Assembly (NCBI RefSeq): GCF_029626105.1
Contig: NZ_JARUBH010000009.1
Span: 4,154,001 to 4,218,000 of the forward strand
Reading direction: 5' to 3'
DNA from: Solwaraspora sp. WMMD792
GTDB taxonomy: Bacteria > Actinomycetota > Actinomycetes > Mycobacteriales > Micromonosporaceae
Length of the DNA stretch: 64,000 nucleotides
Shown piece by piece: positions 7,034 to 64,000 of the stretch. How positions within the stretch are numbered: position 1 is the stretch's first letter; every line of letters begins with the position of its first letter. The notes under the pieces were generated by a model. The model was not told the origin of the DNA, searched no databases, and worked only from the letters and a program-made list of their open reading frames with translations. The translations under genes were made by a program, and so were the position numbers.

Positions 7034-7453
7034 TCAGGCGCGGCCGGCTCGCGACGCCAGCTGGTCGATCCCGCTGACCAGGCCGCCGGCCAGGTCACCG
7101 CCGCCGAAAGAGGCCACCATGGACAGCGCGGCGAGCTTCGCGTCCCGGTCCGGGATCCGCTTACGGGCCTCGGCGCCGGTGACGACCTCCAGCACCCGCT
7201 GATTCGGCGACACGGCGATGAGCACCGCGTCGTCCGGGTCGGTGAGCTGCCGGTGCAGCGTCACCGCGTACTCCCGGGTCGGCTCCTCCAGCTCACCGAC
7301 GTAGATGCTGAACGCCAGCCCGGTGGCCGAGTCGGCCAGCCGCAACGCCTCGTCGAGCCGGAGCAGCTGCCGGGTGCCGAACGGCCCCGGCAGGGTAGCG
7401 CTCGTCCGGGTGGACTCGCTGGACTGCTCGTGGGCCTGCTCACCAACGGTCAC
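7034..7453 (-). CDS. DUF5130-type actinobacterial protein (TPM-like)
   Basis: A 139-residue soluble protein of the actinobacterial DUF5130 group. The core (LADSATGLAFSIYVGELE, then DDAVLIAVSPNQRVLEVVTG) resembles TPM-phosphatase folds, and the C-terminus carries a Gly-rich run (ASFGGGDLAGGL). Function is unknown. The GTG at 7453 follows GGGAGG and overlaps the end of the upstream membrane gene by 14 bases, so the two are translationally linked. Confidence 0.75.
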   Translation of the reverse strand: MTVGEQAHEQSSESTRTSATLPGPFGTRQLLRLDEALRLADSATGLAFSIYVGELEEPTREYAVTLHRQLTDPDDAVLIAVSPNQRVLEVVTGAEARKRIPDRDAKLAALSMVASFGGGDLAGGLVSGIDQLASRAGRA

Positions 7454-7730
7454 TTGCGCCTCCCGTCGCGCCCGGACGCGGCTGCCCGCCGCCGAGGTTG
7501 GTCGACTCGATCGCCGTCGGCTCGGTGCCGGCCGGCAGCGCCGCCGCCGGGGTCCCGGTGGACCGGTCGCCGGACGAGACGTACCAGACCGGGCTGAAGT
7601 CGAACTGCCGGCCGGGCCGGTAGCGGCGGTCCGCGCCGCCACGCCCGCCGATCATCGCCAGACCGGCCACCACGAGCACGATGACCGCCGGGATCACGAC
7701 GAAGAAGAGCACCGTGTTGGTAACAGACAA
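7440..7730 (-). CDS. Small membrane protein, likely aa3 oxidase accessory subunit CtaJ
   Basis: A 96-residue protein with one N-terminal transmembrane helix (about residues 5-25, NTVLFFVVIPAVIVLVVAGL) and a conserved-looking segment YRPGRQFDFSPVWYVS, followed by a disordered tail. This layout matches my memory of the actinobacterial aa3-type cytochrome oxidase subunit CtaJ family. The TTG at 7730 is preferred because it gives the typical MSVT start and has an upstream GGGGGG; a further TTG lies at 7757. It overlaps the DUF5130 gene downstream. Confidence 0.6.
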   Translation of the reverse strand: MSVTNTVLFFVVIPAVIVLVVAGLAMIGGRGGADRRYRPGRQFDFSPVWYVSSGDRSTGTPAAALPAGTEPTAIESTNLGGGQPRPGATGGASDRW

Positions 7731-7762
7731 TCTCAACGCCCCCCGGCATCGGTTCAAGGGAC

Positions 7763-9271
7763 TCAGCGGATGTCTGGAGTGGTGGACCTGGCCACACCGC
7801 CAGCCCGTTCCGGCTCAGACGCCTTCACGGTAGCGGAGGGCCCGGCCCGCCAGATCTCCGGGTGCCGACCGGGCCAGCCGGTCCGCTCCTCCAGCTGAGC
7901 GGCCGCGGCCAGCACGGTGGCGTCCGCGCCGCCGCGGCCGGTCAGCAGAACTCCCACCGGCTGCCCGGCCGCACTCTGCGCCACCGGGACGGACACCGAC
8001 GGTTGCCCAGTGACGTTGAACACCGCACAGTACGGCGAGAAGCGCCGCTGCCGGTCGAAGTCCTCGGCCGGGTCACCCGTTTCGGTGAACCAGCCGACCG
8101 GGGCCTGCGGAGCGCTCAACGTCGGGCACAGCAGCAGGTCCAGCCCGACCACCGCGTGCATCGCCCGGCGTACCTGGACCTGCAGCTCGGCCAGGGTGGC
8201 GACCAGCGTCGCGGCGCTGATCGCGTTGCCCCGGCGACGCAGCAGCCGGGTCAACGGCAGCAGCCGCGCCTCCCGTTCCGGTGGCACCGGGGCCAGCGCG
8301 AGCACGTACCAGACGGTCTCGAACAGCGGCCACAGGTCCGGGCCGAGCGGCGCCGGAACGTCGACGACCTCGTGGCCGGCGTCGGCGAGCAGCGCGGCCG
8401 CCGTGTCCACCGCCGCCAGGCAGTCCGGATGCACCGGTTCGTCGGCGAGCATCGGGGTGGTGAACCGGCCGATCCGCAGCCGGCCGGGGTCCGCGCGACG
8501 GGCCGCCGCCAGATAGCCGCCGGGCGGCGGTGGCGGTGCCAGGTACGGCTCACCGGGCACCGGCACCGCCATCGCGTCGAGCATCGCGGCGGCGTCGGCG
8601 ACGGTCCGGGCGATCGGTCCGTGGCTGGGCAGGCCGAACCCGCCGGCGCCGAGCGGGCCGCCGGAGACGACCCCCCGGGTGGGCTTGTAGCCGACCAGGC
8701 CGCAGAGGGCGGCCGGGATCCGGCACGAACCGCCGCCGTCCGAGCCCTGCGCGAACGGCACCAGTCCGGCGGCCACCGCCGCCGCCGCTCCCCCGCTGGA
8801 GCCGCCGGCGGTGCAGGCCAGGTCCCACGGGTTACGCGCCGGCGGTGCCACCTCCCCCTCGGTGTAGAGCGAACAGCCCAGCTCGGCGGCGGTGGTCTTG
8901 CCGAGGCTGACGGTGCCGGCGGCACGCAGCAGGCGGACCACGTCCGCGTCGACGCTCGGCACGTAGTCGGCGAACGCCGCCGAGCCGAAGGTGGTGCGGA
9001 CCCCGGCGGTGAGGGTGAGGTCCTTGATCGCCACCGGTACGCCGTACAGCGGGCCGGGGTGCTGCCGGGTCCGGGTGCTCGGCGGGACCCGGTCGAGGGC
9101 GTGGGCCTGTTCCCGGGCGTGGTCGGCGGTGACCGTGACGAACGCCCCGACGGTGTCCGAGTGGGCGTCGATCCGGGCCAGGTAGTGCTCGACGATCTCG
9201 GTGCCGCTCAGCTCGCCCCGGCGGATCGCGGCGCCCTGCTCCAACGCGGTCAGATCATGGATCTGCGACAT
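7763..9271 (-). CDS. Amidase (amidase-signature family)
   Basis: A 502-residue hydrolase of amide bonds. The Ser-cisSer-Lys triad is visible: Lys83 (AIKD), Ser158 in GGSSGG and Ser182 in GSDGGGS, with the usual 24-residue gap. The substrate channel is not diagnostic, so it could act on an aliphatic amide or be GatA-like; the absence of gatC/gatB neighbours argues against tRNA amidation. The ATG at 9271 is the first in-frame start of the conserved region. Confidence 0.93.
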   Translation of the reverse strand: MSQIHDLTALEQGAAIRRGELSGTEIVEHYLARIDAHSDTVGAFVTVTADHAREQAHALDRVPPSTRTRQHPGPLYGVPVAIKDLTLTAGVRTTFGSAAFADYVPSVDADVVRLLRAAGTVSLGKTTAAELGCSLYTEGEVAPPARNPWDLACTAGGSSGGAAAAVAAGLVPFAQGSDGGGSCRIPAALCGLVGYKPTRGVVSGGPLGAGGFGLPSHGPIARTVADAAAMLDAMAVPVPGEPYLAPPPPPGGYLAAARRADPGRLRIGRFTTPMLADEPVHPDCLAAVDTAAALLADAGHEVVDVPAPLGPDLWPLFETVWYVLALAPVPPEREARLLPLTRLLRRRGNAISAATLVATLAELQVQVRRAMHAVVGLDLLLCPTLSAPQAPVGWFTETGDPAEDFDRQRRFSPYCAVFNVTGQPSVSVPVAQSAAGQPVGVLLTGRGGADATVLAAAAQLEERTGWPGRHPEIWRAGPSATVKASEPERAGGVARSTTPDIR

Positions 9272-9476
9272 TGACCGATCCTGGCAGGTCACTCGCCGGC
9301 CGCAGCGGCCAGGTACGGGTGACCTGACCGGGCGCTGGTTCACCCGGGAGGGGGAGGCATAGCCGGCGCCGGGACGGGAAGTCGGGCCAGCGGGCTCCGG
9401 CCGTCGGCACGGCACACCGGTCGCCGCCGACGCAGCCGGCATCGCCGGCCGGCCGGAGCGTAGTCGGGGGGAGATC

Positions 9477-10004
9477 ATGCCAGGAGTGAGCCATCTGGTC
9501 CGCACGCTGGCCGGGCTCGCCGCCGCCGTGCTGATCGGCACGGTGGCGGCCGGGGTCGACGCGTCGCCGGCGTACGCGGGCAGCACCTACGTGGAGGCCG
9601 ATCCGAGCACCGTGCACGCCGGTGGTCGGGTGACCATCCGGGCCAGCTGCGGGGACGACAACACCAGCCAGGCGACGGTCGAGTCGGACGCGTTCGGGCG
9701 GGTGATCGTGATGCCGGACCAGGATGTGCTGACCGGCCAGGTGACGGTGCCCGGCAGCAAGCGTCCCGGGCGCTACCCGGTGGACCTGCAGTGTCAGAAC
9801 GGGAACACGGCGACAACCACCCTGACCGTGACCGGCACGGCGCACCCGACCAGAGGCCCGGACGCCGGAGGCGGCGGCACCGCGTCGGCCAGCACCGGCT
9901 CCGGCGGCTCGGCCCTGCTGGTCGGCGGTATCGCCGTGATCGGGCTGGGCGCCGGGATCGGGCTGTTCGCGATGCGCCGTCGACGCGCCGACTCCGGCGC
10001 GTAA
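9477..10004 (+). CDS. Secreted, membrane-anchored surface protein
   Basis: A 175-residue protein with a signal peptide (about residues 1-34, cleavage after SPAYA), an Ig-like extracellular domain with two cysteines (residues 35-120), a Gly/Ser/Thr linker and a C-terminal transmembrane helix ending MRRRRADSGA. This is the shape of a sortase substrate, but no LPXTG or LAXTG motif is seen before the helix. The ATG follows a GGGGGGAG ribosome site. The sortase gene starts 16 bases downstream. Confidence 0.8.
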   Translation: MPGVSHLVRTLAGLAAAVLIGTVAAGVDASPAYAGSTYVEADPSTVHAGGRVTIRASCGDDNTSQATVESDAFGRVIVMPDQDVLTGQVTVPGSKRPGRYPVDLQCQNGNTATTTLTVTGTAHPTRGPDAGGGGTASASTGSGGSALLVGGIAVIGLGAGIGLFAMRRRRADSGA

Positions 10005-49555: not shown

Positions 49556-49657
49556 TCCTGACGGTACGACGGCACGACGTGCATCGAATCGATCGTTCGT
49601 CTGCACCACAGTGCACCAAAAGTTGATTCCGCTGTGCCGACGACGGGAGTCAGGCTG

Positions 49658-52600
49658 ATGGTTCATGTAGACAAATCAAAGGCAATCCGGGTGACGAATC
49701 TCGACGTACCAGCGCAGGATGTCCCGATCCAATCACAAGTGATTCAGCACCGAAATGGGGAAAGTCCGGCACTGTCGTTCGGTCAGGAACGGATCTGGTT
49801 CACCGAGCAGCTGACGCCGGGCACCGCCGGCTACGTCGTACACAGCACGGTACGGATGGGTGGCCCGCTCGATGCCGACCTGCTGCGCGCCGCAGTGGAC
49901 ACCGCCGCGGCCCGCCACGACAGCCTGCGGATGCGGTTCACCGAGAACCTCGACGGCGAGCCGCGGGTCGAGGTGGTACCGCAGGTCACCGTACCGTTCA
50001 CGGTGCTCGACGCCGACGACGAGACACACGCCCGGGAGCTGGTCGACGCCGCCGTGCGGACCCCGTTCGACCTGGCCGTCGCACCGCTGCTGCGGGTGCT
50101 CCTGGTCCGGCTCGGCGACCACGACCAGGTACTGCACGTCGGGATGCACCACATCGTCAGCGACGGCTGGTCGCTGAACCTGCTGCTGGCCGAGGTCGCC
50201 GCCCGCTACGGCGCGCTCACCGACGGTCTGCCGGTGCCGCCGGCACCGGCCATCGACTACGCCGACTACGCCGCCTGGCAACGGGTACGCGGTGACGGAC
50301 CGGCCGCCCAGCGGGAACTCACCTACTGGACCGGGGCGCTCGCCGGAGTACCGCCGCTGGAGCTGCCGACCGACCGGCCCCGACCCGCCGTGCAGTCGTA
50401 CGCCGGCGACGTGCACCGGTTCGGCTTCGATGCCGAGCTCACCGCGGCACTGCGCCGGCTGAGCCGGGCCCACCGCAGCACCCTCTACATGACGCTGCTC
50501 GCCGGCTGGCAGGCGACGTTGTTCCGGTACAGCGGGCAGCGGGACTTCGCCGTCGGATCACCGGTCGCCGGCCGGGTGGTGCCGGAGGTGGAGAACCTCG
50601 TCGGGCTGTTCGTCAACACGGTGGCGATCCGGGCCGACCTGTCCCGGACACCGACCAACAGCGCCGGCGGTGGCGGTGCCGGCGATCGCGGTGGTGCCAG
50701 CAGTGCCGGCGACGGCGGTGAGCCGAGCTTCGGCGAGGTGCTGCGCCGTACCCGGGGGCGGGTGCTACGGGCGCTGAGCCACCAGGAGGTCCCGTTCGAA
50801 CGTCTGGTCAAGGAACTCAACGTCGCCCGCGACGTCAGCCGGGCACCGGTGTTCCAGGTGCTGTTCACCCTGCAGAACTACTCGCGGGCGCAGAGCAGCT
50901 GGCCGCGCGGGATCACCACCGGGGCGTTCGGCAGCGACGCGGCGGCGGCCCGGTTCGACCTGTCGCTCTACGTCAGCGAGACCGACGACGGGCTGCGGGC
51001 CATGCTGGTCTACAACACCGACCTGTTCGACGCCGCCACCGTGGCACGGCTCACCGGGCACTACCGGGCGTTGCTGCGCGCCGCGGTGGCCGACCCGGAC
51101 CGGCCGGTGGTGGACCTGCCGCTGCTCGACGACGCACAGCAGCGGCAGCTGACCGCGTTCAGCACCGGCCCGGTGCCCGACGCCGACCGCCCGCGACCGG
51201 CCACCGCCGGTGCGGCCACCCTCGGCGACCTGGTCAGCCGGCACGCCACGGCCACCCCGCAGGCACCCGCCGTGGTCTGCGGCGACGACCTGATCAGCTA
51301 CGCCGAGCTGGACCGACGCGCCAACCAGCTGGCCCACCAGCTGCGGGAGTGCGGCGTCGCACCCGGCCGGCTGGTCGGCGTCTGCCTGGACCAGTCGGTG
51401 CAGCTGGCGGTCGCCCTGCTCGCCGTACTGCGGGCCGGCGGGGCCTACCTGCCGCTCGACCCCGAGCAGCCACCCGCCCGGTTGCAGCTGATGCTCGCCG
51501 ACGCCGCCCCGACAGTGGTACTGACCAGCAGCGAGATCCGCGCCGTGCTGGGCGGCGACGCGGCCCCGCCGGCTCTCGCCGAGGCGACCTGCCTGGACCG
51601 GATCGCCTCGGTCGTCGCGCAACAGCCGACCAGGCCGCCGGCAGGGGCGGCGGGCGGCGACGACCTGGCCTACGTCATCTACACATCCGGCTCGACCGGC
51701 GTGCCCAAAGGGGTCGCGGTCGCCCACCGGCAGGTGCTGAACTATCTGGACGGCGTCGCCGAACGGTTCGACGTCGTGCCCGCCGGCCGGTACGCGCTGC
51801 TGCAGTCGCTGTCGTTCGACTTCAGCGTCACCGTGTTCTACCTGGCGCTGGCGACTGGCGGCAGCGTCCATCTGGTGCCGAGGCGGTGCACCGGTGAGGA
51901 GCTCGCCGACGCGTTGCGCACCGGGCAGATCGACTACCTGAAGATGACGCCGTCGCATCTGCGGGCGCTGGCCGCCGAGGTGGACACGGCGCGGCTGCTG
52001 CCCCGGCGGGCGCTGATCCTCGGCGGCGAGGCGGCCGACCTGGACTGGGCGGCCGACCTGGCCGGGCACGGAGTGCCGGTGTTCAACCACTACGGACCAA
52101 CCGAGGCAACCGTCGGGGTGACCACGTACCGGGTGTCGGCACACGAGCGGGGGCCGGGCAGCGTGCCGATCGGCCGTCCGCTGCCGTACGCCCGGGTGCA
52201 CGTGCTCGACGCCCGGCTGCGGCCGGTGCCGGTCGGCGTACCGGGTGAGGTGTACCTCGGCGGCGACCGGCTGGCCCGGGGCTACCTGAACCGGCCCGGA
52301 CTGACCAGTCAGCGCTTCGTCCCGGACCCGTTCGGCCCGCCCGGCTCCCGGCTGTACCGCACCGGTGACCTCGGCGCGTGGCGTGCCGACGGCGAACTGC
52401 TCTTCCTGGGCCGCACCGACCACCAGGTCAAGATCCGCGGCTACCGGGTGGAGCTGGGTGAGGTGGAGGCGGCGCTGCGCGAGCTTTCCGGGGTACGGCA
52501 GGCCGCCGTACTGCTGCGTGACGACCGGTTGGTCGGCTACCTGGAACGCGTTCCGCAGGACCCGGCACCGGAAACGGCGCACGGGCCGGCACCCGAGCCG

Positions 52601-55420
52601 GCACCCGAGCCAGAGCCGGCCGAGCTGCGCCGGCTGCTCGCCGACCGGCTGCCGGACCACATGATCCCCAGTCGGTACTGCTGGCTGGACCGGCTGCCGC
52701 TGCAGGATCACGGCAAGATCGACCGCAGGGCGCTGCCGGATCCGGGCGACGATCAACCCGCCCGGGAGTACGTCGAGCCGGCCGGCCCGGTGCAGACGCT
52801 GATCGCCGCCGTCTGGCAGGCGGTGCTGCAGGTGCCCCGGGTCGGCGCCGACGACGACTTCTTCGAGCTGGGCGGCCATTCGCTGCTGGCCACCCAGGTG
52901 GTCGCCCGGCTGCGCCGGGAACTGCCGACGGTCCGCGCCGGGGACGGCGCGCCCCCGGCGGTCAGCGTGATGGACCTGTTCCGGCACCGGACCGTACGCG
53001 AACTCGCCGCCCTGCTGACCGACGGTGACGCCGAGCGGGGTCGGCTGCTGCATGAGCTGACCGCACCGGCCTCCGCCGCCGAGCGGGTCGCCACCCTGCT
53101 CTGTGTCCCGTACGGCGGCGGCAGCGCGGTGGTCTACCAGCCGCTCGCCGACGCGCTGCCGGCCGGCTGGCGGCTGCTGTCGGTGGCGATGCCCGGACAC
53201 GACATCGGGCTGGCCGACGAGCCGGCGCCGATCGACGAAGTCGCCGAAGGCGTGGTCGCGGAGATCCTGGACCGGGTCGACGGGCCGCTGATCCTCTACG
53301 GCCACTGTGGGCCCGGCGGGGCGCTCGCCGTCGAGGTGGCCCGCCGGCTGGAGGAGGCCGGGCGGGAGTTGACCGCGGTCTACCTCGGTGCGATCTTCCC
53401 GTTCGGCCGGCCGACCGGCGGGTTGCTCGGTCCGCTGCTGCGGCTGCGGTTGGTGGAGCGGGTCCGCAGCGACCGGATCTACCGCACCTGGCTGCAGGCG
53501 CAGGGCACCTCGATCGGTTCCCTCGACCCGGAGGAGGCGGCGTTCCTGATCCGGGCGATGCGCCACGACGCCCGGGTCTCCGAGGACTACTTCACCGCGC
53601 TGATGCGCGACCAGGTGACCCCGCTGCGCGCCCCGGTGATCTCGGTGGTCGGGGAACGCGACCGGGGCACCGACTTCCATGAGGAACGCTTCCAGGAGTG
53701 GCACTTCCTGTCCGACCGCACCGCACTGGCGGTGATCGACGAGGCGGGGCACTACTTCCTCAAGTACCGGGCCGGCGAGCTGGCGGAGATCGTCACCGGC
53801 GTCCATCTGCGGCTGGACACACCGCCAGCGGGCGACGTACCGCCGGTGGGCGCGGTGCCACCGGCCGTACCGGTCGAATCCGACGTGCCACCCACCGACG
53901 GCGCGGGGGTGGACGACCCGGCGTGGCGGCTGCACGCGGTCTCCGACCGAGGCCCGGCCGCCGACCCGCCGGGGGCCCGGTCCGGACCGTCGGCACCGGA
54001 CCGGGTGGCGACCGGACCGGACCGGGCAGGCGGGCCACAGCCCAGCCTGCGCCGGTTCGGTCTGGTCGCGGCCGGCCAGATCGTCACCACCACCGGCACC
54101 GCGCTGACCAACTTCGCCGTACCACTGTGGATCTACCTGGAGACCGGTTCGCTGGCCCGCTTCGCCCTGTTCTCCATCGTCAGCTTGCTTCCCGGACTGC
54201 TGATCGCCCCACTGGCCGGGGCGTTGATCGACCGGACGAGTCGCCGCCGGGTACTACTGGCCGCCAGCGTCGCCGCCGGCGGCGCCAAGGCGGTGATGGC
54301 CGGGCTGCTGATCGCCGACCGGGCCGAGATCTGGCACTTCTACCTGCTCGTCGGCTGGCTGTCGGTGGCGTTGGCGTTTCAACGGCTGTCGTTCGTGTCG
54401 GCGGTGCCGCAGCTGGTGCCGAAACGCTTCCTCGGCCACGCCAACGGCCTTACCCAGACCGCGGTCGGGTTGACCCAGTTCATGGTGCCGCTGCTGGCGG
54501 TCGCGCTGCTGGAGGCGGTCGGACTGCGCGGCATCATGATCATCGACGTGGTGGCGTACGTCTTCGCCGTCGCGGTGCTGATCGTCATCCGGTTCCCCCG
54601 CACGCTGGCGCTGCAGCGGCGGGAGAGCCTGGGGCAGGAGATCCTCGGTGGGTTGCGCTACTCGCTGCGCCGCCGGGAGTTCCGCGGCATGCTCGCCTTC
54701 TTCGCCGCCCTCAACCTGTTCCTGTTCCCGGTGCTGTTCCTGCTCTCCCCGTTGGTGCTGGGCTTCGCCGAGCTGGCCGAGGTGGCCCAGATCGCGCTCA
54801 CCGGCGGGGTCGGCGCGGCAGTCGGCGGGCTGGTGATGCTGGTCTGGGGCGGCCCGCGCCGCTACCGGATGCGGGCCGTGCTGATCGGCACGCTGGGCAT
54901 CGCGGTGGCCTGCGCGGTGACCGGGCTGCGCCCCAGCCTGCTCGTCATCGGTGCCGGGGCGTTCGGCATGTACTGCGCGCTCGGCCTGGTCAACGGCATC
55001 TACAACACGATCATCCAGATCAAGGTGCCGCCCCGGTTCCACGGTCGGGTTTTCGCGCTCAACCAGATGGTCGCCTGGTCGACGATGCCACTCGGCTGGG
55101 GGGTGATCGCCCCGCTGGCCACCAGCCTGATGGAGCCGCTGCTGATGCCGGACGGGGCGCTGGCCGACACGGTCGGGCAGGTCATCGGGGTCGGTCCGGG
55201 CCGGGGCATCGCCCTGCTCTACATCGCCTTCGGCGTCTGCATCGCGCTGACCGCGATCGTCTCGATGCGCACCCGGGTGCTGTCCCGGTTCGACGACGAG
55301 GTGCCGGACGCTCCGCCGGACGACCTGGTCGGCATCGAGACCCGGCAGGCCCGGGTGGCGGCGTCCCCCGGCGGTGGCCGGCAGGCCCGGGTGGCGGCGT
55401 CCCTCGGCGGTGGCCGATGA
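49658..55420 (+). CDS. Nonribosomal peptide synthetase fused to an MFS exporter (C-A-PCP-TE-MFS)
   Basis: A 1920-residue protein with five parts. C domain about 30-480, with LSFGQERIWF and intact His164-His165-IVSD-G170. A domain about 515-1005, with YTSGSTGVPKG, FNHYGPTEATVG, YRTGDL and GKIDRRALP; the pocket code read against GrsA is D-F-T-K-I-G-H-V-G-K, close to Asp codes. Carrier domain with phosphopantetheine Ser1075 (LGGHS). Thioesterase about 1135-1390 with Cys1217 in GHCGPG instead of Ser, plus GERDRGTD and GHYFL. After a 70-residue Pro/Gly linker, an MFS domain of about 12 helices (about 1465-1880) with an EntS-like layout. ATG 49658 is eight bases after GGGAG. The reading frame is open throughout, so the fusion is real in this sequence. 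Confidence 0.93.
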   Translation: MVHVDKSKAIRVTNLDVPAQDVPIQSQVIQHRNGESPALSFGQERIWFTEQLTPGTAGYVVHSTVRMGGPLDADLLRAAVDTAAARHDSLRMRFTENLDGEPRVEVVPQVTVPFTVLDADDETHARELVDAAVRTPFDLAVAPLLRVLLVRLGDHDQVLHVGMHHIVSDGWSLNLLLAEVAARYGALTDGLPVPPAPAIDYADYAAWQRVRGDGPAAQRELTYWTGALAGVPPLELPTDRPRPAVQSYAGDVHRFGFDAELTAALRRLSRAHRSTLYMTLLAGWQATLFRYSGQRDFAVGSPVAGRVVPEVENLVGLFVNTVAIRADLSRTPTNSAGGGGAGDRGGASSAGDGGEPSFGEVLRRTRGRVLRALSHQEVPFERLVKELNVARDVSRAPVFQVLFTLQNYSRAQSSWPRGITTGAFGSDAAAARFDLSLYVSETDDGLRAMLVYNTDLFDAATVARLTGHYRALLRAAVADPDRPVVDLPLLDDAQQRQLTAFSTGPVPDADRPRPATAGAATLGDLVSRHATATPQAPAVVCGDDLISYAELDRRANQLAHQLRECGVAPGRLVGVCLDQSVQLAVALLAVLRAGGAYLPLDPEQPPARLQLMLADAAPTVVLTSSEIRAVLGGDAAPPALAEATCLDRIASVVAQQPTRPPAGAAGGDDLAYVIYTSGSTGVPKGVAVAHRQVLNYLDGVAERFDVVPAGRYALLQSLSFDFSVTVFYLALATGGSVHLVPRRCTGEELADALRTGQIDYLKMTPSHLRALAAEVDTARLLPRRALILGGEAADLDWAADLAGHGVPVFNHYGPTEATVGVTTYRVSAHERGPGSVPIGRPLPYARVHVLDARLRPVPVGVPGEVYLGGDRLARGYLNRPGLTSQRFVPDPFGPPGSRLYRTGDLGAWRADGELLFLGRTDHQVKIRGYRVELGEVEAALRELSGVRQAAVLLRDDRLVGYLERVPQDPAPETAHGPAPEPAPEPEPAELRRLLADRLPDHMIPSRYCWLDRLPLQDHGKIDRRALPDPGDDQPAREYVEPAGPVQTLIAAVWQAVLQVPRVGADDDFFELGGHSLLATQVVARLRRELPTVRAGDGAPPAVSVMDLFRHRTVRELAALLTDGDAERGRLLHELTAPASAAERVATLLCVPYGGGSAVVYQPLADALPAGWRLLSVAMPGHDIGLADEPAPIDEVAEGVVAEILDRVDGPLILYGHCGPGGALAVEVARRLEEAGRELTAVYLGAIFPFGRPTGGLLGPLLRLRLVERVRSDRIYRTWLQAQGTSIGSLDPEEAAFLIRAMRHDARVSEDYFTALMRDQVTPLRAPVISVVGERDRGTDFHEERFQEWHFLSDRTALAVIDEAGHYFLKYRAGELAEIVTGVHLRLDTPPAGDVPPVGAVPPAVPVESDVPPTDGAGVDDPAWRLHAVSDRGPAADPPGARSGPSAPDRVATGPDRAGGPQPSLRRFGLVAAGQIVTTTGTALTNFAVPLWIYLETGSLARFALFSIVSLLPGLLIAPLAGALIDRTSRRRVLLAASVAAGGAKAVMAGLLIADRAEIWHFYLLVGWLSVALAFQRLSFVSAVPQLVPKRFLGHANGLTQTAVGLTQFMVPLLAVALLEAVGLRGIMIIDVVAYVFAVAVLIVIRFPRTLALQRRESLGQEILGGLRYSLRRREFRGMLAFFAALNLFLFPVLFLLSPLVLGFAELAEVAQIALTGGVGAAVGGLVMLVWGGPRRYRMRAVLIGTLGIAVACAVTGLRPSLLVIGAGAFGMYCALGLVNGIYNTIIQIKVPPRFHGRVFALNQMVAWSTMPLGWGVIAPLATSLMEPLLMPDGALADTVGQVIGVGPGRGIALLYIAFGVCIALTAIVSMRTRVLSRFDDEVPDAPPDDLVGIETRQARVAASPGGGRQARVAASLGGGR
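55343..55414 (+). repeat. 36-base tandem duplication at the 3' end of the NRPS-MFS gene
   Basis: Two 36-base copies (55343-55378 and 55379-55414), differing at one base, encode RQARVAASPGGG and RQARVAASLGGG, the C-terminal tail of the MFS domain just before the stop. It adds a positively charged cytoplasmic repeat. Confidence 0.9.
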
Positions 55421-56970
55421 GCTCAGCTACCGGTGTCCCCCGGCGGCCGGCCGCCGCGCCGGCCGCTCGGACCGTACCCGAGCTGCTCGACTGGCGCTGC
55501 TCCCTGCACCCCGACCGGGTCGCCATTGAGGTCCACGGCGTGGACCAGCTCACCTTCGCCGACTGGCGGGCCGGGTCGCTGGCGGTGGCCGCCGCGCTGC
55601 GACGGACCGGGGTGGCCCCCGGTGACCGGGTCGCGCTGGTGTTCGCGGCGCGGGAGTGGACCGGCTACGCCGTGGCGTACTGCGGGGTATTGCGGGCCGG
55701 CGCGGTCGCGGTGCCGCTGTCCGACCGCCTCGCCCCGGCCCAACTGGAGTACGCGGTGCGGCACTGCGCCGCCCGGCTGGTCCTGCACGGACCGCTGACC
55801 GGCCCGACCGGGCCGGCGCCGGCCGTACCCACCGGGGTCGCGCCGCTAGCGCTCGCCGACCTGGTCGCCGACGGCCCGGTCGCCGACGGCACCGGCGCGT
55901 CCGCTCCCCCGGTGCGGCCCGCTGACCTGGCTCAGATCCTCTACACCTCGGGCACCACGGGCCGGCCCAAGGGCGTCGGCGCCAGTCACGCCAACCTGGT
56001 GGCCGGGGCGCCGAACCACCCGCGCCGGCTGGCCCTGGCCCACTCGGAGCGATTCCTGCATGCCTTCCCGATCGGCACCAACGCCGGGCAGACCATGCTG
56101 TTCAACGCGTTGACCGCGAAGCCGGCCGCGCTGACCCTGCCCCGGTTCACCCCGGCACGGTTCGCCCGCCTGGTGACCGCGCCCGGCACCGGCACCGTCT
56201 TCCTAGTCCCGTCGATGGCGATCGAACTGCTCGACTCCGGTGCCCTGCGGGGCCGGGACACCTCCGGCGTGATGCTGATCGGGTCGACGGCGGCGGCGCT
56301 CGCGCCGGCGGTCGCCACCCGGCTGGCGACGACGTTCCCGGCCGCGACGATCGTCAACTACTACTCGTCGACCGAGGCCGCCCCCGCCCAGACCGTGATG
56401 ATCTTCGACCCGGCGCGGCGGGCCGCCGTGGGCCGGCCGGCCGACGGTCAGCTGATGATCGCCGACGAACAGCGCCGGCCGCTGCCGCCGGGCAGCCTCG
56501 GCGAGGTCTGGCTGCGCTGCCCGCATCCGCGTTCGTACTACCGCGACGGCCCGGCCACCGAGGCGACGTTCCGTCAGGGCTGGGTCCGGATGGGCGATCT
56601 CGGCCGGCTGGACGCCGACGGCTACCTGTACCTCGCCGACCGGCACCAGGACATGATCAAGTCCGGCGCCTTCAAGATCTCCTCGCTGGAGGTGGAGGCC
56701 GCGCTGCACGAACATCCGGCCGTCGGCGAGGCGGCGGTGGTGGCCGTCCCGCACCCCGTGCTCGGGTCGGCGGTCGGGGCGGTGCTGGTGCCCCGCGCCG
56801 GGCAGCCGCCGCACGAACTCACCCTGCCCACGGTGCGTGCCTTCCTGGCCGACCGGCTCGCCGACTACCAACTGCCGGCCCGGGTGCTGGTCGTCGAGGC
56901 ACTGCCCCGCAACGAGGCCGGCAAGGTCCTCAAACGGACGCTGGCCACGCTGTTCGACCCGCTCGGCTGA
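55417..56970 (+). CDS. Stand-alone adenylate-forming ligase (acyl/aryl-AMP ligase)
   Basis: A 517-residue ANL-superfamily enzyme. The ATP motif ILYTSGTTGRPKGV, NYYSSTEAAPAQ, MGDLGRLDADGYLYLADR, and the terminal lysine motif in PRNEAGKVLKR are all present, so both half-reactions look possible. It lacks a carrier domain. The ATG start overlaps the NRPS stop (ATGA), so it is coupled to it. It probably activates a carboxylic acid and loads it on the free carrier protein downstream, or on CoA; the acid cannot be predicted. Confidence 0.9.
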   Translation: MSSATGVPRRPAAAPAARTVPELLDWRCSLHPDRVAIEVHGVDQLTFADWRAGSLAVAAALRRTGVAPGDRVALVFAAREWTGYAVAYCGVLRAGAVAVPLSDRLAPAQLEYAVRHCAARLVLHGPLTGPTGPAPAVPTGVAPLALADLVADGPVADGTGASAPPVRPADLAQILYTSGTTGRPKGVGASHANLVAGAPNHPRRLALAHSERFLHAFPIGTNAGQTMLFNALTAKPAALTLPRFTPARFARLVTAPGTGTVFLVPSMAIELLDSGALRGRDTSGVMLIGSTAAALAPAVATRLATTFPAATIVNYYSSTEAAPAQTVMIFDPARRAAVGRPADGQLMIADEQRRPLPPGSLGEVWLRCPHPRSYYRDGPATEATFRQGWVRMGDLGRLDADGYLYLADRHQDMIKSGAFKISSLEVEAALHEHPAVGEAAVVAVPHPVLGSAVGAVLVPRAGQPPHELTLPTVRAFLADRLADYQLPARVLVVEALPRNEAGKVLKRTLATLFDPLG

Positions 56971-57033: not shown

Positions 57034-60000
57034 GTGGGCACCGCCGAAGCGACGTACACGCAGCACGCCGTCTGGTTCACCGAACAGGCCGGAGTGGCGG
57101 GTACGGCGTACCACATGGCACTCGGAGTGTGGTTCGCCGCCGGCCTGGACCAGGCGGCGCTGGCCACGGCGTGCGCCGCCGTCGTCGACCGGCACCCGAT
57201 CCTGGCCACCCGGGTCGACGACAGCGACGGCGTACCGCGACTCGCCCCGGCCGCCGACCGCCCGACGCTGCGGCGGCTGACACCGCCGGCTGGTGGCGCG
57301 GACGCCGACCGGCTGATCGCGGCGGAGATCGCCCGCCGCCACGACCTGCGGGCCGGCCCGCTGGCCAGGTTCAGCCTGATCCCCGCCGCCGGCGGTGACC
57401 GGCACCTGCTGCTGATCACCGCCCACCACCTGGTCTTCGACGGTACGTCCAAGGACGTGCTGGTCCGGGACCTGGCGGCGGCGTACGGTGCCGCCCGCGC
57501 CGGTCGCCCGGTCGAACTGCCGGCGGCACCGACCGACGGGTACGCGGCACGGGCCGGCACCGAACGGGACCGGGTCGCGGCCGAGTCGGCGGCGGCCGCA
57601 GAGCACTGGGCCACCCGCTGGTCCGGCCCGGGTGGGCTGGTGCTGCCCGGTCTCGCCCGGGTGCCGACCGACGCCGAACCCGGCGACGCCGTACCGGTGG
57701 TGTTGGAGCCGGGTCTGGTCGCCGGGCTCGACCAGGCCCGGCGCAAGCTCGGGGTCACCCGGTTCGAGCTGCTGCTGGCCGCGGTGCACGCGCTGCTGCA
57801 CAGGTACGGCAACCAGCAGGTCCCGGTCGGGGTCGGGGTGTCGACCCGTACCGCCGACGACGCCGACGAGATCGGCCTGTTCGTCAACGAACTGCCGGTG
57901 ACCGTCCCGGTGCCCGACGACGCGGGTTTCCGCGACCTCGCGCTCGCCGTCCGGGACGAGACGCGGGCGCTGAACCGGTTCCGGGCCGTCCCGCTGGCGC
58001 ACGTGGCCACCGGGCTGCGGCCGGCGCCCGCGCTCACCCCGGTGTCGATCGGCTACCGCCGCCGCGCGCCGGAACCCGTGTTCGCTGCGGTGCCGACCAC
58101 CGTCGACTGGGCGATGTTCAGCGGCGCGGCCCGCAACGCGCTGCACATCCAGGTCGTCGACGGGCCGGTACCGGACAGCGACCAGGAGCACCTGGAAAGC
58201 AACCTGGAGATCAACCTGCAGTTCAGCCCGACGGCTGTTCCCGCCGCCGCCGTCACCCGGATCGGCGACCACCTGCGGACCCTGCTGGCCGCCGTGGCCA
58301 CCGACCCGGAACAGCCGGTCGACGACCTGCCGGTGCTGCCTCCCGCCGAGTCCGAGCTGGTCTGCCGTGGCTGGAACGCCACCGGCCGCGACTACCCGGC
58401 CGACGCGACCGTGCCGCTGCTGTTCGCGGCGGCGGTACGGCGGACACCGGACGCCGTCGCGGTCGTCGACGGTGGACGTACGTTGAGCTACGCCGAACTC
58501 GACGCGGCCAGTGCCCGGCTCGCCGGGCTGCTGCGGCGCCGTGGCGTCGGGGCGGGATCGCTGGTCGCGGTGCTGCTGGACCGCTCCTGGCAGGCGGTCG
58601 CCGCGCTGCTCGCGGTGCTGCGCAGCCGGGCCGCGTACGTGCCCGTCGACCCCAACTATCCGCCGGCCCGGCAGGCAATGATTCTCGACGACGCCGCGCC
58701 GGCGCTGGTACTGACCACCAGCGGTACGGCGGCCGCCCTGCCCGCCGGGTCACCGGTGCTCACCCTCGACCAGCTCGACCTGACGACCGCTGCCCCAGAA
58801 ACCGCAGACCCGGGGTCCGCTGACCCGGGGACTGCGGACCTGCCCGGCCCGGACGAGCTGGCGTACGTGCTCTACACCTCGGGTTCCACCGGGCGGCCAA
58901 AGGGGGTGCGTGTCCCGCACGGTGCGCTGGCCAACCTCCTGCTCGGCATGCGGGACATGTTCGACAGTGGGCCGGCTGACCGGTGGCTCAACCTGACCTC
59001 GCCGTCGTTCGACATCTCGGGGGTCGAGGTCTACCTGCCGCTGACCACCGGCGGCCAGGTGGTGGTGGCCTCCGGCGTCAGCGCGCTCGACGGCGCCGGG
59101 GTGCTACGGCTGGTGCGCGAGAGCCGGGTGACACATGTGCAGGCGACTCCGTCGGGTTGGCGGGTCCTGCTGGAGGCCGGGCTCGACGACCAGGTGGTGG
59201 CGGTCACCGGCGGCGAGGCGCTGGCGGTCCCGCTGGCCCGCCAGTTGCGCTCACGGGTGGCCCGCTTGGTCAACGGGTACGGCCCGACCGAGGCGACGAT
59301 CTACGCGACGATGGCGGAAATCCCGCCGGAACCGGCCGAGGTCACCATCGGCCGGCCGGTGCCGAACACCACCGCGTACCTGCTGGACGGGCGGCGGCGG
59401 CCGGTGCCGATCGGGGTGCCCGGCGAGCTGTACCTGGGCGGGCGGGGCGTCGCCGACGGCTACCTGAACCGCCCCGAGCTGACCGCCGAGCGGTTCGTCC
59501 CCGACCCGTACGCTACCGACGCCGGCTGTCGTCTCTACCGCACTGGCGACCTGTGTCGCTGGCTGCCCGACGGCCGGCTGGAATTCCTCGGCCGGGCGGA
59601 CGACCAGGTGAAGATCCGCGGCCACCGGGTGGAGCTGGGTGAGATCACCGGCCGGCTGCTGGAGCATCCGGCTCTCGCCGAGGCCGCCGTACTACTGAAC
59701 GGGACGGACGAGGCGTCGCCGCGGCTCGTCGCCTACCTGGTGCCCCGCGGTGCCGCGCCGACCATCGCCGAGCTGCGCCGGCACCTGACCGAGAAGCTGC
59801 CCACGGCGATGGTGCCCACCGACTGGGTGCTGCTCGATCGGCTACCGGTGAGCCCGAACGGAAAACTGGACCGGGCCGCGCTGCCGGCACCGACGACCGG
59901 CGGTACGGACCCGACGGCCCCGACGGACCTGGTCGACGGCGCCGCTGCGGTCGTCGAGGCCGACCCAATCGTCGAGGAGATCCGATCAATCTGGCAGGAC

Positions 60001-60192
60001 GTGCTGCAGATCGCCGAGATCGGCATTGACGAGGACCTGTTCGACCTGGGCGGGCACTCGTTGACGATCACCCGGATCAGTAGCCGGATCCACCGTCGGC
60101 TCGGCGTCGAGGTGCCGTTGGACGCGTTCTTCGACACGCCGACGATCGCCGAGATCGCCGACCTGGTCCGCGAAGCCGGCGGCCGGTGCTGA
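57034..60192 (+). CDS. Nonribosomal peptide synthetase module (C-A-PCP)
   Basis: A 1052-residue one-module synthetase without release domain. The C domain (1-420) has His131-His132-LVFDG137. The A domain (about 440-945) has YTSGSTGRPKGV, NGYGPTEATIYAT, YRTGDLCRWLPDG and PNGKLDRAALP; its pocket code reads D-I-V-Q-V-G-G-I-Y-K, which shares the D-I-x-Q-x-G pattern of glycine codes but is not an exact match. The carrier site is Ser1009 in LGGHS. The GTG start at 57034 has GGAGG just upstream. With no TE, its product should pass to the NRPS-MFS protein. Confidence 0.93.
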   Translation: MGTAEATYTQHAVWFTEQAGVAGTAYHMALGVWFAAGLDQAALATACAAVVDRHPILATRVDDSDGVPRLAPAADRPTLRRLTPPAGGADADRLIAAEIARRHDLRAGPLARFSLIPAAGGDRHLLLITAHHLVFDGTSKDVLVRDLAAAYGAARAGRPVELPAAPTDGYAARAGTERDRVAAESAAAAEHWATRWSGPGGLVLPGLARVPTDAEPGDAVPVVLEPGLVAGLDQARRKLGVTRFELLLAAVHALLHRYGNQQVPVGVGVSTRTADDADEIGLFVNELPVTVPVPDDAGFRDLALAVRDETRALNRFRAVPLAHVATGLRPAPALTPVSIGYRRRAPEPVFAAVPTTVDWAMFSGAARNALHIQVVDGPVPDSDQEHLESNLEINLQFSPTAVPAAAVTRIGDHLRTLLAAVATDPEQPVDDLPVLPPAESELVCRGWNATGRDYPADATVPLLFAAAVRRTPDAVAVVDGGRTLSYAELDAASARLAGLLRRRGVGAGSLVAVLLDRSWQAVAALLAVLRSRAAYVPVDPNYPPARQAMILDDAAPALVLTTSGTAAALPAGSPVLTLDQLDLTTAAPETADPGSADPGTADLPGPDELAYVLYTSGSTGRPKGVRVPHGALANLLLGMRDMFDSGPADRWLNLTSPSFDISGVEVYLPLTTGGQVVVASGVSALDGAGVLRLVRESRVTHVQATPSGWRVLLEAGLDDQVVAVTGGEALAVPLARQLRSRVARLVNGYGPTEATIYATMAEIPPEPAEVTIGRPVPNTTAYLLDGRRRPVPIGVPGELYLGGRGVADGYLNRPELTAERFVPDPYATDAGCRLYRTGDLCRWLPDGRLEFLGRADDQVKIRGHRVELGEITGRLLEHPALAEAAVLLNGTDEASPRLVAYLVPRGAAPTIAELRRHLTEKLPTAMVPTDWVLLDRLPVSPNGKLDRAALPAPTTGGTDPTAPTDLVDGAAAVVEADPIVEEIRSIWQDVLQIAEIGIDEDLFDLGGHSLTITRISSRIHRRLGVEVPLDAFFDTPTIAEIADLVREAGGRC

Positions 60193-60236
60193 ACCAGCGG
60201 CCGACGCTGGACGAACTCGAGACGAAGGAGGATTCG

Positions 60237-60518
60237 GTGGACACGACGACGCTGCGGCAGCGGGTGATGGAGCTGGTCGACGAGGCGACCGGCGGCACGG
60301 TGCCGGTCAACCAGCTGACCGGCGGCGGATCGCTGATCGCGCTGGGAGTCGACTCGCTGGGCCTGCTCCGACTGGTCGACGCCGTCGAGGCCGAGTTCGG
60401 CGTCGAGGTGGAGTTCGACGGCCCCGGCCAGCGGATGGACACTCTGGACGACCTGGTGGCCGCGATCGTCGACGCCCGCGACGAGGCCGAGCCGGACCGG
60501 GCCACCACCCCCGGGTGA
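60237..60518 (+). CDS. Acyl carrier protein (free-standing)
   Basis: A 93-residue acidic four-helix carrier protein with the phosphopantetheine Ser40 in LGVDSLGLL. The GTG at 60237 sits five bases after AAGGAGG and 44 bases after the NRPS stop. Within the locus it is the natural acceptor for the stand-alone ligase, giving the first building block to the C domain of the C-A-PCP protein (inference). Confidence 0.88.
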   Translation: MDTTTLRQRVMELVDEATGGTVPVNQLTGGGSLIALGVDSLGLLRLVDAVEAEFGVEVEFDGPGQRMDTLDDLVAAIVDARDEAEPDRATTPG

Positions 60519-63402: not shown

Positions 63403-64000
63403 TCAGTCGTTGGTCTTGGTCGCTGCCGGGACGCGGCCGAGGTCGCGGTCCTTGAGCCGGTAGCTGTCGCCCTTCATCGAAACGACCTCGGCGTGGTGAA
63501 CAAGCCGGTCGATCATGGCCGCGGCGACGACGTCATCACCGAAGACCTCTCCCCACCGGCCGAAGGGCTTGTTACTGGTGACGATCAGCGAGGCACGTTC
63601 GTAGCGGTTCGAAACCAACTGGAAGAACAGGTTCGCCGCTTCGGCTTCGAAGGGGATGTAGCCGACCTCGTCAACGATCACCAGCGGGATCCGGCCGAGT
63701 TTGACGAGCTCGTCCTGCAGCCGGCCGGCGTGGTGGGCGTCAGCGAGACGGGACACCCACTGAGCGGCGGTGGCGAACGCGACCCGGTGTCCGGCCTGGC
63801 AGGCCCGGATACCGAGACCGATGGACAGGTGGGTCTTGCCGGTGCCGGGCGGCCCCAGGAACACGACGTTCTCCTTCGACGCCACGAAGTCCAGAGTGCC
63901 CAGGTGGGCGATCGTCTCCCGCTTCAACGACCGCTGGTGTTCGAAGTCGAACTCCTCCAGGCTCTTGCGTGCCGGGAACCTCGCCGCCCGGATACGCCCC
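63403..64000 (-). mobile_element. istB: IstB-like ATPase of an IS21-family element (runs off the right edge)
   Basis: At least 199 residues of the IstB helper ATPase, which acts with IstA in transposition. Walker A GPPGTGKTHLSIGLG, Walker B LVIVDEVGYIPFEAEAANL and VTSNKPFGRWGEVFGD (sensor region) are intact. The N-terminal part continues beyond base 64000 in frame (segment RKSLEEFDFEHQRS visible). The element's end should lie between the stop at 63403 and about 63340; no clear terminal inverted repeat can be defined without its other end. Confidence 0.93.

Follow-up and report, generated by a model that had tools for sequence, protein, structure and literature searches.

The stretch of the Solwaraspora sp. 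WMMD792 genome analysed here (64,000 nucleotides; hereafter the window) encodes a nonribosomal peptide synthetase (NRPS) in which the terminal thioesterase (TE) is followed, in one uninterrupted open reading frame, by a transporter of the major facilitator superfamily (MFS). This protein probably stands at the end of a small NRPS assembly line, with the release and export steps carried by one chain. The frame is open over 1928 codons without stops (49634..55420, plus strand), and an ATG at 49658 with GGGAG upstream gives a product of 1920 residues. The domains of this protein and the other genes of the cluster are as follows.

49658..55420, plus strand: NRPS of C-A-PCP-TE-MFS organisation in one open frame, 1920 residues (Pfam)
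49769..51154, plus strand: condensation (C) domain, residues 38–499 (Pfam), active-site motif HHIVSDG
51239..52747, plus strand: adenylation (A) domain, about residues 528–1030, code DFTKIGHVGK, taken to be Asp-like
52802..53017, plus strand: peptidyl carrier protein (PCP), residues 1049–1120 (Pfam PP-binding), phosphopantetheine Ser 1075
53078..53842, plus strand: TE, about residues 1141–1395, with Cys1217 (GHCGPG), Asp1335 at position II, His1365, and Ala1245 at position I
53843..54040, plus strand: TE-MFS linker, with Trp1423 in a short predicted strand between low-confidence stretches
54047..55270, plus strand: MFS domain, about residues 1464–1871, 12 predicted membrane helices, motif A (GxxxDRxxRR) from residue 1521
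55417..56970, plus strand: AMP-forming acyl ligase, 517 residues, nearest to fatty-acyl-CoA ligase families; its start overlaps the NRPS stop (ATGA)
57034..60192, plus strand: NRPS elongation module C-A-PCP, 1052 residues, A code read by eye as D-I-V-Q-V-G-G-I-Y
60186..60518, plus strand: free-standing acyl carrier protein (ACP), 110 residues
48125..49666, minus strand: divergent free-standing condensation-like protein with the motif SHSTVDA, 513 residues counted from the first ATG (the true start may be further in)

The first-pass annotation of this DNA had described a single chain of C, A, PCP and TE domains joined to about 12 MFS helices, and had proposed a domain search of the protein. The Pfam search bore this description out, giving Condensation (residues 38–499), AMP-binding (528–877), AMP-binding_C (935–1020, at 21.6 bits below the cut-off of 24.5), PP-binding (1049–1120), Thioesterase (1146–1243) and MFS_1 (1471–1806, 79.1 bits versus a cut-off of 33.4), in that order. 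The C, A, PCP and TE domains have the intact motifs of an NRPS termination module, and the C-terminal part combines the MFS_1 match with 12 predicted helices and motif A, as in MFS transporters. This part also matches MFS_3 and the H+ antiporter model TIGR00900, the latter with a score of 150.4, below its curated cut-off of 319.6. Both of these models presumably belong to the DHA3 family (2.A.1.21). DHA3 proteins are described as drug and siderophore antiporters (PMC3924187); the window transporter shares the TIGR00900 and MFS_3 matches with them, but differs in being fused to an NRPS and in its sub-threshold TIGR00900 score.

An AlphaFold2 model of residues 1046–1905, based on a 42-row alignment from which L024, L040 and three plasmid loci were left out, had a mean pLDDT of 85.6 and a pTM of 0.72; in it, a carrier protein is followed by an alpha/beta hydrolase and then by an MFS domain. 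Twelve long membrane helices between residues 1464 and 1871 were read from the helix list of the model, and a hydropathy profile averaged over the alignment showed 15 raw peaks, likewise interpreted as 12 helices. The charges of successive loops alternate in the manner of a protein with its N terminus in the cytosol, with a net charge of +5.1 on the central loop. This positive-inside pattern places the N terminus of the MFS domain in the cytosol, so that the synthetase is predicted to be cytosolic and tethered to the membrane, in agreement with the membrane-bound assembly line suggested earlier.

In the proposed pathway, the acyl ligase would charge the free ACP with an acid, the C-A-PCP protein would add the first residue together with the free-standing C domain, and the terminal module would contribute an Asp-like residue. 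The chain would then leave the PCP for Cys1217 of the TE, the resulting thioester would be released by hydrolysis or intramolecular attack, and the fused antiporter-type MFS domain, kept close by a flexible linker, would export the product. We infer the order of reactions, the substrate and the service of the fusion in local hand-over, as well as any direct passage of the product from the TE to the transporter.

To our knowledge, export in NRPS pathways is normally the task of a separate gene. The enterobactin system, in which the terminal module EntF (C-A-PCP-TE) and an EntS-type MFS product exporter are separate proteins, provides a comparison; the match of the EntF TE to the window TE is weak (E 0.001). 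An enterobactin-like siderophore line, with a Ser module and an MFS, was rejected for the window, since its TE is far from that of EntF and the ligase best matches fatty-acyl, not aryl-acid, ligases. Full-text searches, mostly with narrow terms and covering few subscription journals and preprints, found no paper describing an NRPS fused to an MFS transporter; automatic annotation may already label such proteins NRPS/MFS. A conserved covalent link between release and export would offer a direct way to test the hand-over of products from assembly lines to transporters.

Relatives were collected by scanning the GTDB species collection with two conserved peptide patterns, which yielded at least 80 loci; split or more distant relatives may have escaped this procedure. 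TE and MFS share one open frame in at least 43 of the 80 listed GTDB loci and in three plasmid loci, at least 46 in all. Among the matches listed, identity to the window over PCP-TE-MFS was 47–77% in 41 of these 46 loci and 40–41% in five. Taking the best plus-strand TE match among those listed, all 46 loci with a TE at least 47% identical to that of the window have the one-frame joint, and no MFS match was found in the six other loci listed, with weaker plus-strand TE matches (26–36% identity). PP-binding, Thioesterase and MFS_1 (Pfam), as well as MFS motif A, are present in each of the 47 aligned members, including the window. The set contains near-copies, for example L021 and L105.

In genomes sampled by taxonomic rank, 64 TE-MFS frames occur in 41 of the 101 from the window's family. 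Two TEs of this family were listed without an MFS, each located at the end of a contig, where in one case an MFS domain begins, and 25 further frames are MFS-only, at most 40% identical to the window MFS; two of the latter are long (1396 codons in G418 and 1047 codons in G475). In the class sample of 98 genomes, matches were found in four genomes, and all eight frames were fused. In the phylum sample, the fusion was found in at least one of 396 genomes, the window's own, which is a lower bound because two candidates were scored in the genomes listed versus up to 11 in the family and class samples. Named hosts among the matches listed belong to Micromonosporaceae, Streptosporangiaceae, Streptomycetaceae, Pseudonocardiaceae and Catenulisporaceae. 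From these samples, the fusion would seem to be frequent in a few families but rare outside them. The recurrence of the TE-MFS joint in many actinomycetes makes the synthesis and the export of the product appear linked.

A few copies deviate. The frame of L040 seems to be broken within the MFS domain and that of L101 within the A domain. L100 (G423, 7319–9625, minus strand) is an orphan TE-MFS frame, 769 codons long, around which no NRPS was matched within 15 kb. Its MFS shares 52% identity with that of the window, and its TE looks dead, since the nucleophile is Gly (GHGG).

The main clue, absent from the first-pass annotation, is the Cys nucleophile of the TE together with its kinship to TEs forming beta-lactones and beta-lactams. 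Cys was found in 67 of the 69 TEs read, which comprise 47 aligned members (46 with Cys, and L012 with Ser), 21 further proteins (20 with Cys, and L100) and L102 (Cys); five more close kin outside this set (L095–L099) carry Cys too. In an alignment of 66 TEs, with the register of the Asp positions taken from ObiF1, the nucleophile is Cys in 65, the triad Asp stands at position II in all 66, a RifR-like location, and position I holds Ala (44) or Gly (22). Among solved structures, the best relative of the window TE by sequence is ObiF1 (6n8e, E 3.4e-24), with RifR and further thioesterases of the stand-alone type, as well as the SulM TE (8w2c, E 6.5e-9), behind it. One extra residue after the nucleophile, without counterpart in ObiF1 in the alignment, is present in 52 of the 66 TEs and missing in L038, L041, L045, L046, L048, L049, L059, L103 and L128–L133. 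In place of the Gln-Cys-Asn motif of SulM, the window TE has His-Cys-Gly.

Cys-TEs exist without MFS: the nucleophile in 15 unfused TE relatives from the fetched loci is Cys in five, Ser in nine and Gly in one (two misaligned rows were read by eye), and the four closest of them include three with Cys and one with Gly. L012 is the only TE read that joins a Ser nucleophile (GHSSVG) to an MFS domain; its terminal A code, DTEDIGTVIK, is unusual, being unlike those for Ser, Thr, Cys or Asp.

As described in the respective papers, the Cys triad of ObiF1 closes a beta-lactone (PMC6668435) and that of SulM a beta-lactam (PMC11298585), both with Asp at position II, as in the fused TEs. ObiF1, the obafluorin NRPS, shares with the window protein the C-A-PCP-TE order, the Cys nucleophile and the RifR-like Asp position, but its C terminus is an MbtH-like domain rather than a transporter, and its substrate has a beta-hydroxyl (PMC6668435). 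The window protein has no MbtH-like Pfam match, and it differs from ObiF1 also in its Asp-like A code, while most fused TEs have the longer spacing after Cys. The TE of SulM (sulfazecin) likewise resembles that of the window in nucleophile and Asp position, differing in the motif noted above and in the weaker sequence match; the words 'transporter' and 'MFS' are absent from the main text of the SulM paper (PMC11298585).

The terminal A code could be read in 66 proteins, L024, L100 and L101 being left out of the count for want of a usable in-frame A domain. By commonly used code positions and meanings (Ser, Asp-like, Cys and Thr), applied also to DFTKIGHVGK of the window, 33 codes specify Ser, 17 are Asp-like (including the window), one specifies Cys, and 15 are others, one of them Thr. 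The mean A-domain distance between the Ser and Asp groups is 0.56 versus 0.35 within groups, and the C, TE and MFS domains differ little, which suggests replacement of A domains in a stable frame. A four-membered ring would be possible with Ser, Thr or Cys as the terminal residue, but with Asp only after prior beta-hydroxylation, and none of the five cluster genes has a Pfam match to a hydroxylase. Therefore, a beta-lactone is not predicted for the window protein.

One could hypothesise that the Cys-TE closes strained rings in the manner of ObiF and SulM, and that the exporter is fused to it because the product is reactive; proteins ending with Ser would then make beta-lactones, the one ending with Cys a beta-thiolactone, and those ending with Asp, such as the window protein, another intramolecular acyl product. 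The kinship to ObiF1 and SulM, the near-invariant Cys and the shared layout of positions I and II argue for this explanation, as do the Ser codes in half of the proteins with the single Cys and Thr codes, and the peculiar code of L012, the one TE of the 66 with a Ser nucleophile. However, the Asp-like codes, that of the window among them, come without a beta-hydroxyl, the 14 remaining codes are mixed, type II hydrolytic TEs have the same triad layout, and the fused TEs depart from SulM in the motif and mostly from ObiF1 in the extra residue. We regard such ring formation as possible, although not as the expected outcome. Rather doubtful is the more general proposal that Cys-TE-MFS is a widespread actinobacterial module for strained or otherwise reactive acyl products, in Ser-ending proteins beta-lactones, which it would hand directly to the exporter, leaving no free warhead in the cytosol. 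A GHC thioesterase followed by an MFS domain offers a search handle for many, apparently unstudied, clusters with release enzymes resembling those for beta-lactones and beta-lactams.

The preferred reading, a terminal protein with release and export in one chain, raises the question of how closely the two steps are coupled. The linker between TE and MFS measures 1–78 residues in 47 proteins (median 30), has the lowest identity of all parts in seven out of seven comparisons, and includes two stretches with pLDDT below 50 in the AlphaFold2 model. A single Trp within the short predicted strand is found in the linker of 41 of the 47 alignment rows; a regular expression for this Trp motif matched 28 of them. 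The variability of the linker in length and sequence gives no indication of a docked interface between TE and transporter, and its flexibility favours nearness over a channel. Release at the transporter mouth, as suggested earlier, remains a proposal, and the linker is better explained as a tether than as a rigid channel.

Selection was assessed by comparing the window with seven relatives, four congeners and three other family members, with the C domain covered for L058 and L069 only. The dN/dS ratio was 0.10–0.36 for the MFS domain and 0.24–0.50 for the linker, and the lowest value among the compared domains belonged to the MFS in four comparisons and to the TE in three (L095, L058 and L069); in L058, the ratio for the short linker fell below that for the MFS. 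The MFS part is under purifying selection.

Alternatively, the MFS domain could serve chiefly to anchor the protein in the membrane or to confer self-resistance as a pump, the TE only hydrolysing its substrate and the fusion fixing gene dosage with no hand-over. The variable, partly low-confidence linker would suit this explanation, and the set of MFS_1, MFS_3 and TIGR00900 matches fits generic drug efflux. On the other hand, the conservation of motif A in all 47 proteins and the low dN/dS argue against a mere anchor, and a plain pump would not need a lasting fusion across so many lineages, so we find this explanation unlikely.

That the fusion is an artefact of a sequencing error joining two genes, or that the MFS domain is translated separately from an internal start, is most improbable, since the same open frame was found in many separate assemblies, including three S. 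clavuligerus plasmid records, no clear split copy of TE and MFS was seen among relatives from the pattern scan and the family and class samples, and the only in-frame start codons in the window linker are five weak-looking GTGs (one matches GGAGGA at 3 of 6 positions, and the others are weak by eye, though 53855 has GGTGGG upstream). An ATG does stand at the same place just before helix 1 in 30 of the 47 proteins, the window not among them, but it was rejected as a relic start because Met also occurs at the matching place in separate cyanobacterial MFS proteins, where it need not be a start. Thus, neither the assembly error nor the consistently split homologues that would have spoken against the first-pass annotation were encountered, and the PCP-TE-MFS order that it asked to be traced in homologues does recur.

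The origin of the fusion was considered using an MFS tree, which excluded L102 (no MFS) and L103 (cut short). The 67 fused MFS domains all lie on one side of a single branch from the 14 standalone ones, with an SH-aLRT of 88, a moderate support obtained by a quick method in a tree with long branches; this arrangement fits a single fusion. Across 63 proteins, MFS distances correlate with those of TE (r 0.83), A (r 0.59) and C (r 0.84); since the C domain tracks the MFS as closely as the TE does, TE and MFS are not a special pair in this respect. In all five inspected loci whose NRPS is without this Cys-TE, the MFS is encoded by a separate gene, located directly after the NRPS in Nostoc (37% identity to the window MFS), Trichormus (40%), a Holophagales MAG (36%) and Lentzea fradiae (29%), and roughly 1.2 kb downstream in Amycolatopsis xylanica (28%); by sequence, the last two are weak relatives. 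The cyanobacterial NRPSs (L092 and L093) thus have a related MFS directly after the NRPS, as in the window, but in two genes and with a Ser-type TE. An NRPS gene followed by an MFS gene, and then one fusion in the Cys-TE line, is the likely history.

The gene set of the window recurs in the same order in Micromonospora endophytica (L058) and Micromonosporaceae bacterium KJ-029 (L069), with 59–85% identity over the parts compared. A related ligase and C-A-PCP module are also present on two Embleya plasmids and an S. clavuligerus plasmid; in two of these three plasmids (L009 and L010), ligase, carrier and C domain seem, from the frames, to be fused in one protein, and the actinobacterial plasmid records carry no annotation at the places of the fused NRPS. 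The earlier question of whether the fusion is always accompanied by an adjacent ligase and ACP finds no support in the counts: a close ligase (at least 50% identity) was detected in at least 15 of 46 listed loci and an ACP match in at least 12, both lower bounds because the stretches extend up to about 10 kb on each side (12 kb in plasmid loci). Neighbouring genes, called roughly in the window and the 46 loci, included partner NRPS modules in 26 of the 47 cases and a standalone C protein in 14, the window being among both, and no tailoring enzyme was common to all 47. In the 14 aligned free-standing C proteins, the first His of HHxxxD is replaced by Ser or Cys, and the second His and the Asp are kept. 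L058, with two free-standing-C stretches within one 1007-residue frame, was kept outside this alignment. A match to the adjacent GAF-SpoIIE gene appeared in five of 46 fused loci, at 34–36% identity, and this gene is therefore not counted among the parts of the cluster.

Some neighbourhoods have features of their own. Ser-coded NRPS-TE-MFS proteins in L019, L025–L030, L034 and L044 lie beside PKS-like genes, read from sequence, most of them also with a TauD-like gene, and this group is probably a separate product family. Genes resembling E1 components of 2-oxo acid dehydrogenase complexes, likewise read from sequence, occur near the fused NRPS in L012, L016, L020, L039, L041, L042 and L047, and E2-like genes in L012, L037, L038 and L042; these parts would perhaps supply a starter unit. 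Within the window, no Rfam match reached the gathering score, and a match to an IstB-type transposase ATPase lies at 63403–63927, about 3 kb past the end of the cluster.
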